A stretch of DNA of 64,000 nt, taken from NCBI GenBank assembly GCA_027315185.1, contig DAHUYO010000010.1:1-64000 (forward strand), written 5' to 3'. Below the pieces are notes generated by a model. That model was not told the origin of the DNA. It saw only the letters and a list, made by a program, of their open reading frames with translations, and made no database searches. Shown one piece after another: positions 3 through 22,417 of this stretch (position 1 is the stretch's first letter; every line of letters begins with the position of its first letter). Source of the DNA: Acidobacteriota bacterium. Its GTDB lineage: Bacteria; Acidobacteriota; Terriglobia; Terriglobales; SCQP01. The position numbers and the translations under genes are program-made.

Positions 3-146
3 AAGACCCGCCTGGACCTCCCGTGGAACGCCTACTACGACAAGGAACTCGACGTCCGGTTCTCCCGGTCGTACGGGCCCGGCCGGTATGACGACCGCTA
101 TGAGCTGGAGGGGATCGACTACCCGGCCGGTTACGTCCGCTGGACC
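3..146 (+). pseudogene. Fragment of a bi-domain (zinc-alcohol-dehydrogenase / Gfo-Idh-MocA type) oxidoreductase
   Basis: The frame beginning at base 3 reads a segment containing SRSYGPGRYD, then IDYPAGYVRWT about ten residues later. This resembles the conserved stretch at the end of the dehydrogenase half of bi-domain oxidoreductases, where the usual form is roughly SRSYGPGRYDPNYE...DYPIGYVRWT. Similarity stops abruptly at the Thr near base 146. After that the frame stays open to 428, but only as antisense of the pilus operon. The gene is cut by the window on the left and by a junction on the right, so it cannot be functional as read here. Identification is by recall of family motifs; the exact substrate is unknown. 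Confidence 0.6.
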
Positions 147-295
147 GCCGCGTCGCCGTTACCGCCCCCGATCAAGTGGCCCAAGCGGTTGGAAATGCCC
201 TCCGCCCGCCATAGCAGCACGGCCGCCACAGCAACCAGAGCGGCCAGCGCGATCAATTGTCCCCGTGGGGTTGGCTTGGCGGCAGCGCGGCTCAT
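131..295 (-). pseudogene. Truncated gene downstream of pilO (single membrane segment)
   Basis: A 54-residue ORF starts with ATG inside the pilO stop (ATGA overlap), the same coupling used throughout this operon, so it is a real gene start. Residues about 14-29 form one hydrophobic segment (LIALAALVAVAAVLLW) after a short basic N-terminus, as in bitopic pilus-assembly proteins. Only about the first 49 codons belong to the pilus side. The last few and the stop come from the foreign oxidoreductase sequence beyond the junction near 146/147. In other genomes the gene after pilO is often pilP or another pilus component, but too little remains to name this one. Confidence 0.55.
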
Positions 296-20972: not shown

Positions 20973-21587
20973 ATGATGGAAGTGATGTATCTCCCCGAAG
21001 TCGAAGCCGGGCCCGGCGGCGGACCCTACGGCGCCTTGGTCGCCGCCGCCCGCTCCCAGGGCGCGCAGCCGCCACAGATTTTCCACCTGTTCGCCTACCG
21101 CCCGGAGGCCACGCAGCACCTCGCCGCCTTCACCCAAGCCGTGCTGCGCGGCCCCTCGGACCTGTCCCCTGGGTTGCGCGAACTGATCGCCGCGTTTACC
21201 TCCCGCGGCAACGACTGCGAATTTTGAACCGGCAGCCACGCCGCGGTCGCGGCGGAACTGCTGGGCGATGCGGCGCGGGTACAGGCGGTGCTGGCGGATT
21301 TTCACCAAGCTCCGATCCCCGACGCTGAACGCGCGCTCTTCGCCTTCGTCGCGCGCCTCAACCGCGCGCCGGCCAGCATCACTGGCGCCGATGTCGCCGC
21401 CGTGCTCGCCGCCGGCTGGAGCCAATCGGCGGTGTACGACGCAATCACCGTCTGCGCCCTGTTCAACTTCTACAACCGTTGGATTGACGGCTCCGGCGTT
21501 CACGGCCTGACGCCGGAGGGCTACGCGCGATCCGCTCAGCGCTTGGTGCGCTTCGGCTATGGATCCGGACCTTCCGGCCAGCCATGA
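20973..21587 (+). CDS. AhpD-like (carboxymuconolactone decarboxylase family) selenoprotein, CxxU, read through TGA at 21225-21227
   Basis: A 204-residue protein interrupted by an in-frame TGA at codon 85. Both halves belong to one AhpD/CMD-type peroxidase-related protein. The active-site region reads Glu70 ... Cys82-Glu-Phe-[UGA85]-Thr-Gly-Ser-His89. The spacing Glu-12-Cys-x-x-Cys-x-x-x-His is that of AhpD (Glu118, Cys130, Cys133, His137 in the mycobacterial enzyme), so UGA occupies the peroxidatic Cys. A hairpin directly after UGA has the features of a bacterial SECIS (separate entry). GGAGG at 20965-20969 precedes two adjacent ATGs (20973, 20976); either could start. Predicted role: selenol-based peroxide or thiol redox chemistry, next to a 1-Cys peroxiredoxin. 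The alternatives are a pseudogene or a base error. Confidence 0.82.
21225..21264 (+). promoter_or_regulatory. UGA selenocysteine codon and bacterial SECIS element
   Basis: TGA (21225-21227) is followed by an outer 7-bp stem (21229-21235 with 21258-21264, one G-U), a 3x3 internal loop and an inner 6-bp stem (21239-21244 CGCCGC with 21249-21254 GCGGCG). The stem is capped by the tetraloop GGTC (21245-21248). The loop starts 17 nt after UGA, inside the range expected for bacterial SECIS, and the GGUC loop resembles the SelB-contacted loop of E. coli fdhF. All pairing was read directly from the bases. Confidence 0.82.
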
Positions 21588-21646: not shown

Positions 21647-21727
21647 GGTGCGCCTGATCCCGTTTTTCGCACCTTCCGCCTTGGCGGAAGCCGATTTCCA
21701 ACAGGCCCACCAAACGGTGGGCTTTTT
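21647..21727 (+). promoter_or_regulatory. Structured leader (three hairpins) before the peroxiredoxin gene
   Basis: Three successive hairpins precede the peroxiredoxin gene: GGTGCG/CGCACC (21647-21652/21668-21673), CTTCCGCC/GGCGGAAG (21673-21680/21683-21690) and the terminator stem at 21705-21722. A TATGAT hexamer just after the upstream stop (21588-21593) is a possible -10, with no clear -35. The arrangement resembles an attenuator or an unrecognised riboswitch; it could instead simply end the upstream transcript. Confidence 0.4.
21705..21727 (+). terminator. Intrinsic terminator 24 bases before the peroxiredoxin start
   Basis: GCCCACC (21705-21711), loop AAAC, GGTGGGC (21716-21722), then five T residues. 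It is positioned between the selenoprotein stop (21587) and the peroxiredoxin Shine-Dalgarno sequence, so it either ends the first transcript or attenuates the second. Confidence 0.7.
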
Positions 21728-21751
21728 CATTTCTTGAAGGAGATACGGTTC

Positions 21752-22417
21752 ATGAGCATTGAAAATGGCGCCGCTCCCAGGAGCCTGCCCCGCATCAACG
21801 ATCCCGCTCCCGACTTCGAGGCGAAGTCCACGCAAGGGGTCATCCACCTTAGCGATTACAAGGGCAAATGGGTGATGCTGTTCTCCCATCCCGCCGACTT
21901 CACGCCAGTCTGCAGCACGGAGTTCATCCAATTCGCGCGCCGCTACGCGGATTTCCAGGCCCTGGGCGTGCAGCCCATCGGCGTCAGCGTGGACAGCATC
22001 TTTTCCCACATCGCCTGGATGCGCAATCTGGAGCAAAACGCCAAGGTCAAGGTGCAGTTCCCGGTGGTCGCGGATCTCGACACCCGCGTGTCGCAGGCCT
22101 ACGGCATGATCCATCCCGGCGCCAGCGACACCGCGCCGGTGCGGGCGGTCTTCTTCATTGATCCCAAGCAGGTCATCCGCGCCATTCTGTATTACCCGCA
22201 GTCCACCGGCCGCAGCGTGGATGAGATTCTGCGCGTCTTCGAGGCGCTGCAAACCACCGACGCGTACGGCGTTTCCACGCCCGCGGACTGGAAGCACGGC
22301 CAGAACGTCGTTCTGCCGCCGCCGCAAACCCAGGCCGATGCGGAAAAGCGCGTCGCCGACAGCAGCCTGAAGCAGCACGACTGGTTCCTGGCGGAGAAGG
22401 AGCTGGCCAAGAAGTAG
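21752..22417 (+). CDS. 1-Cys peroxiredoxin (Prx6 family)
   Basis: A 221-residue cytosolic peroxidase. The peroxidatic motif PADFTPVCSTE is near residue 46, with the conserved catalytic Arg in the later DLDTRVSQAYG region. The Prx6-type C-terminal arm is present (TPADWKHGQNVVLPPP). No second Cys is present, so recycling needs an external thiol or another partner. AAGGAGA lies eight bases before ATG at 21752. The neighbouring AhpD-like selenoprotein is an attractive but unproven reductant or parallel peroxidase, by analogy with AhpC/AhpD pairing. Confidence 0.94.
   Translation: MSIENGAAPRSLPRINDPAPDFEAKSTQGVIHLSDYKGKWVMLFSHPADFTPVCSTEFIQFARRYADFQALGVQPIGVSVDSIFSHIAWMRNLEQNAKVKVQFPVVADLDTRVSQAYGMIHPGASDTAPVRAVFFIDPKQVIRAILYYPQSTGRSVDEILRVFEALQTTDAYGVSTPADWKHGQNVVLPPPQTQADAEKRVADSSLKQHDWFLAEKELAKK

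Follow-up and report, generated by a model that had tools for sequence, protein, structure and literature searches.

Bacteria insert selenocysteine (Sec) at a UGA codon by means of SelB, which brings Sec-tRNA(Sec) and recognizes the loop of a SECIS hairpin. AhpD-like selenoproteins with a CxxU motif were reported in 2005 from the Sargasso Sea, where 27 sequences were counted (PMC1088965), and the Global Ocean Sampling study of 2008 gave 299 and 70 sequences in two AhpD-like families (PMC2398784). A 2026 review lists AhpD-like selenoproteins under TIGR01926 (PMC13188914), and an earlier paper indicates that selenoproteins were already known in Acidobacteria by 2006 (PMC1794560). AhpD-like TIGR01926 CxxU selenoproteins have thus been in print since 2005, and the kind itself is not new; with the term sets used, our literature search found no paper on acidobacterial or CMD selenoproteins. 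The bacterial SECIS consensus in the review is a small loop with a G in the first two positions on an upper stem of 4-16 bp (PMC13188914), with 16-37 nt between UGA and loop and an MFE <= -7.5 (section 5 of the same source). In the SECIS of Escherichia coli fdhF, as described in PMC8659212, G23 and U24 lie in the loop, U17 and G23 are SelB-binding sites, and the bulged U17 is required.

Here we analysed a 64,000-nt stretch of an Acidobacteriota genome (the window; GC content 68%), in which a UGA at position 21225 is very probably (about 95%, as judged from sequence comparison) decoded as Sec through a hairpin directly downstream, in an AhpD-like redox enzyme and at its active site.

An in-frame UGA in an AhpD-like gene

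The gene, the codon, and the neighbor discussed below are as follows.

20976-21587, + strand: AhpD-like/peroxidase-related (CMD domain) predicted selenoprotein gene; start 20976 or 20973; stop TGA 21585-21587
21225-21227, + strand: in-frame UGA (predicted Sec), residue 85 counted from 20973; motif C82-E-F-U85, with E70 and H89
21752-22414, + strand: 1-Cys peroxiredoxin gene (AhpC-TSA, 1-cysPrx_C), shortly after the predicted selenoprotein gene

With UGA taken as Sec, the frame 20976-21587 encodes 203 residues, and because most homologues align from residue 2, the ATG at 20976, which lies behind GGAGG, is favored as the start. In profile searches the protein scored 103.4 bits against TIGR01926 (peroxidase-related enzyme; curated cut-off 81.8) and 40 bits against PF02627 (CMD; cut-off 23). 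The AlphaFold model (mean pLDDT 92.8) has the AhpD fold, its best Foldseek matches being the AhpD-like structures 6k40, 3c1l, 2prr, and 2oyo, with 6k40 at the top (E 1.7e-8, TM 0.74/0.80), and the putative enzyme class is likely peroxide or disulfide reduction.

A search of genomes from 84,980 species found 207 relatives, of which the best 80 were examined; 396 genomes drawn from the phylum added 13 close matches. Together these make 93 rows at >=180 bits, contributed by Acidobacteriota, Myxococcota, Gemmatimonadota, and a planctomycete MAG; Corallococcus and Myxococcus are among the named organisms with close Sec homologues (L024-L029, L050-L052), in which Sec would lie in an NxCxFU peptide. 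Homology runs unbroken across the TGA in these 93 rows, the codon at this site being TGA in 87 and TGC in 6. E70, C82, U85, and H89 are retained in all 87 Sec rows, and the protein sequence 3' of the UGA stays conserved as well (FNFYNRW). We take the four residues to be equivalent to the relay Glu-Cys-Cys-His known from mycobacterial AhpD, in which case U85 would be the nucleophile.

A functional link with the 1-Cys peroxiredoxin in the form of a conserved operon was considered and rejected, the adjacency being found only in L021 and L022 of the 93 loci, some of which are incomplete. Between the two genes, at about 21704-21731, a GC-rich inverted repeat is followed by a T run; this resembles an intrinsic terminator, and the selenoprotein and peroxiredoxin genes may therefore be transcribed separately.

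Folding of the hairpin and chance expectation

The hairpin comprises the following elements.

21239-21244, + strand: 5' arm of the SECIS inner stem; 71-75 of the 75 distinct sequences from Sec homologues retain the pairs, with third-codon-position covariation
21245-21248, + strand: SECIS apical loop (GGUC), separated from the UGA by 17 nt; GU enclosed by the outer bases, which covary as a G-C/A-U pair
21249-21254, + strand: 3' arm of the SECIS inner stem, 6 bp with the 5' arm; same basis as the 5' arm
21229-21235, + strand: 5' arm of a lineage-specific outer stem, 7 bp; 14 and 11 of 75 distinct sequences retain its innermost pairs
21258-21264, + strand: 3' arm of the outer stem, lineage-specific; same basis as its 5' arm
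21236-21238 and 21255-21257, + strand: 3x3 internal loop, from the fold of 21225-21264

The first-pass annotation had drawn a 7-bp outer stem, a 3x3 internal loop, a 6-bp inner stem, and a GGUC loop 17 nt after the UGA, and folding of 21225-21264 reproduced this structure exactly (MFE -24.7 kcal/mol, z -3.79; 1 of 200 shuffles equally good), the GC-rich inner stem being unbroken over its 6 bp and free of any bulge. Folding of 21225-21290, which it had proposed as a check, gave instead z -1.05 and favored a rival fold, so that folding energy alone was rejected as proof. Counting the U of UGA as 0, the pair probability of the inner stem is 0.97-1.0 in four of the eight spans tried (0..40, 0..100, -60..100, and -150..150) and <=0.01 in the spans 0..66, 10..100, 12..60, and 12..100, in which a downstream rival pairing prevails. 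Scanned against Rfam with gathering scores as thresholds, the window gave no match, which tells little about a SECIS here.

The caution that a GC-rich background makes stems easier to form was well placed: a loose bSECIS-like rule is satisfied by 290 of the 1209 TGAs on both window strands, and the terminal TGA of the selenoprotein gene itself also satisfies it. Taken with the span-dependent folding, this means that the fold alone would not decide. The exact class of the hairpin, defined by a 17-nt spacing, a 4-nt loop carrying G in its first two places, and 6 Watson-Crick pairs, is found after 2 of the 1209 TGAs (both window strands) and, when positions of any kind were sampled, at 10 of 18270. 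Under a synonymous null, in which the peptide was held fixed and codons were drawn from local usage, all three third-position pairs form in 1.9% of draws, and together with the outer stem in 0.095%; an MFE <= -24.7 was reached in 13 of 5000 draws.

It might be asked whether the functional SECIS is the whole two-stem structure, 7-bp outer stem included. This variant of the main reading draws on the rarity of the outer stem and third-position pairs together under the synonymous null and on the behavior of the inner stem, which wins in the spans that contain the outer stem, except 0..66, and loses where the outer stem is cut; it is nevertheless unlikely, since the innermost two outer pairs are lost in most homologues, as listed above, and since, by analogy with what is known for E. 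coli, a ribosome at the UGA should melt the outer-stem region. As a conserved element the outer stem was rejected on the same counts. Of the well-formed SECIS proposed from the first reading, the inner stem with its GU loop was thus found to be conserved, and the 7-bp outer stem was not. The 40-mer with the outer stem is the same in L021 and L022, two near-identical relatives, as in the window, and in this lineage the outer stem may help the inner stem against the rival fold.

Covariation among homologues

The peptide at the hairpin is mostly HAAVAAE. Since the first two bases of Ala codons are self-complementary, the RNA can be tested only at the third-position pairs 14-29, 17-26, and 20-23. 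The counts were made on 124 rows minus 30 under 180 bits minus the window itself (L101), the 87 Sec rows among these giving 75 distinct 40-mers. Pairs 14-29, 17-26, and 20-23 are Watson-Crick in 66, 68, and 68 of the 75 distinct sequences, where 24.7, 26.0, and 26.9 would be expected from the codon usage of the same genes outside the stretch, and where the maxima over 20000 simulations were 41, 42, and 45; this null ignores shared descent and is built on each gene's own codon usage, so that GC content is allowed for. The outer pair of the loop is G-C or A-U in 67 of 75 sequences and G-U in 4. All 60 distinct sequences with Ala-Val at the loop carry either GCGGTC (38) or GCAGTT (22), with no mixed form, and the commonest Val codon elsewhere in these genes is GTG (348/712). 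In the 94-row tree, at least nine changes fall at position 20, and position 23 followed it in 3/3 independent pairs on well-supported branches (sign test p 0.25, the pairs being too few for significance); pairs 14-29 and 17-26 are less variable on the tree, and wobble forms are present. The compensatory changes that the first-pass annotation had suggested looking for in UGA homologues are therefore present, as covariation of third-position pairs at synonymous sites.

These data bear on the view that the TGA arose from TGC by sequencing error or nonsense mutation in a broken or Cys gene, the hairpin being a by-product of Ala-rich, GC-rich coding. The base composition and the frequency with which TGAs pass the loose rule make such a by-product conceivable, as does the self-complementarity of GCN GCN GTN GCN GCN at codon positions 1 and 2, by which four of the seven pairs (the six of the stem plus 20-23) lie at non-third positions and are fixed by the peptide. 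The view is very improbable nonetheless, given that 87 of the 93 close rows, which span several phyla, share the TGA, that the third-position covariation is far above the expectation from codon usage, and that pairing is lost in Cys forms with HAAV peptides. It had been argued from the window alone that a random base error would not be expected to place a hairpin at this point, and the shared TGA and covarying pairs agree with this.

Cys forms and Sec machinery

The stem is broken in 6/6 TGC rows. In the span 12..60, the inner-stem probability is <=0.04 in all six Cys rows and >=0.5 in 65 of the 87 Sec rows (median 0.99); it falls below 0.5 in the other 22 Sec rows, the near-copies L021 and L022 included. 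HAAV is kept in four of the six Cys rows while the stem is lost; hence, keeping the peptide is not enough to maintain the hairpin. Homologues with TGC that keep the identical hairpin had been named beforehand as the result that would speak against a SECIS, and all six have lost it. Pairing kept by compensatory change where the codon is UGA and lost where it is Cys is the behavior of a bacterial SECIS, and we regard this comparison of homologues, rather than folding, as decisive for the hairpin. The tree requires two changes between Sec and Cys, which we infer to be losses of Sec. Two of the Cys rows, L079 and L092, come from one MAG and carry Thr in place of the first Cys of CxxC (C82); they may be divergent paralogues. 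Another, L108 (G086:C4:512524-513099), is a Cys form in a genome with selA, and its inner stem, one mismatch short of five-bp pairing, is perhaps a decaying SECIS.

The source genome (3.77 Mb, 263 contigs, 86% complete) encodes selB (300 bits), selA (529 bits), and selD (365 bits), all over their cut-offs, together with a tRNA-Sec with anticodon tca found by ARAGORN, in agreement with the first interpretation of the UGA as Sec. The selD gene (G000:C208:30955-31887) has one in-frame TGA, followed by GUCCAAC-GGU-GUUGGAC, and is likely a selenoprotein gene itself (KAAG-U-ASKL, with this 7-bp GGU hairpin after the TGA). The same genome harbors a second, distant AhpD-like gene (G000:C182:28597-29010) with a TGA at the same codon, after which comes a 7-bp hairpin with a GUU loop (ACGCAGA-GUU-UCUGCGU).

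Across the 65 genomes of the phylum with a match, counting a TGA of distant rows at any codon, selA is over the cut-off in 36 of the 41 genomes with a TGA-bearing match versus 5 of the 24 without (Fisher p 8e-8, a value that ignores kinship). The five TGA-bearing genomes in which selA was not over the cut-off are G057 (72% complete), G080 (75%, fragments), G266 (72%), G140 (91%), and G341 (97%). Among the searched genomes of named loci, selA is over the cut-off in 14 of 15. The exception is Roseisolibacter sp. H3M3-2 (L072), where the TGA gene is accompanied by a selB match and the genome search gave no selA match, which may reflect a gap in the draft or another route to Sec-tRNA. A MAG labelled Cyanobacteria (L054) encodes a protein identical to that of L103 (G167), a genome of the phylum of the window, and the selA matches of the two genomes have the same contig number, coordinates, and score; the organism label of L054 is therefore probably wrong.

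Strong hairpins 3' of a stop can have other roles, and a real hairpin serving translational pausing or mRNA stability next to a UGA that terminates a truncated protein would be one such case, yet this has hardly any probability here, with the protein conserved downstream of the UGA (FNFYNRW), the hairpin gone where the codon is Cys, the TGA co-occurring with selA, and spacing and loop matching those of fdhF.

Discussion

The reading frame, the constraint on the RNA, the Sec machinery, and the AhpD fold can each be read from the sequences compared here, and together they argue for decoding of the UGA as Sec; SelB binding, Sec insertion, the roles of individual residues, and a peroxidase or disulfide-reductase activity are predictions built on them. 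In the mechanism that we propose, SelB carrying Sec-tRNA(Sec) would bind the hairpin 21239-21254 through its GU loop, and Sec would be delivered at the UGA instead of release factor. The product would be an all-helical AhpD-like peroxidase-related enzyme with a redox center C82-x-x-U85 and a proton relay of E70 and H89, in which U85 would replace the second, nucleophilic Cys of CxxC, and C82 would resolve.

More tentatively, and with somewhat less than even confidence, the unit recognized by SelB in this group may be N1-G-[U/G]-N2, that is, GU (or GG) enclosed in a covarying G-C/A-U pair, the stem having no bulge. In that case the SelB of Acidobacteriota and Myxococcota could dispense with the bulged U needed in E. 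coli when it reads the SECIS; dependence of the enzyme on Sec would explain why nearly the whole subfamily retains it, and the Cys forms would have arisen by loss. The gene offers a simple way to test whether other phyla need the bulged U. Automatic annotation could truncate this gene at the UGA or label it a pseudogene, a doubt that the analysis lifts. The 87 Sec and 6 Cys rows also form a clean natural data set in which synonymous covariation, and not folding alone, supports a bacterial SECIS.

With respect to described families, two models that NCBI names as (seleno)proteins are distant matches, AhpD_rel_CFYUT (NF041238) at 42.1 bits, far under its cut-off of 175, and the YciW-related NF053654 at 22.8 bits, far under its cut-off of 310. 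The gene in the window shares with the TIGR01926 CxxU family the family model over cut-off, the CxxU motif, and a predicted SECIS directly downstream of the codon, whereas its close homologues are mostly from Acidobacteriota and Myxococcota, not marine reads, with Sec in 87 of the 93 examined. The hairpin agrees on every point with the bacterial consensus as given in the review (GGUC, 6 bp, 17 nt, -24.7 kcal/mol over the 40 nt), and the covarying pair round GU resembles the N1-N2 pair of that consensus (PMC13188914). The view, held from the outset, that spacing and loop suit SelB is borne out by fdhF: the GGUC loop is identical, the spacing differs by one base (18 nt in fdhF versus 17 nt in the window), and the G and U of the loop occupy the places of G23 and U24 as described for fdhF (PMC8659212), whereas the bulged U17 of fdhF is absent from the hairpin in the window. 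The locus thus belongs to a kind of selenoprotein already known, to which it adds one well-supported member.
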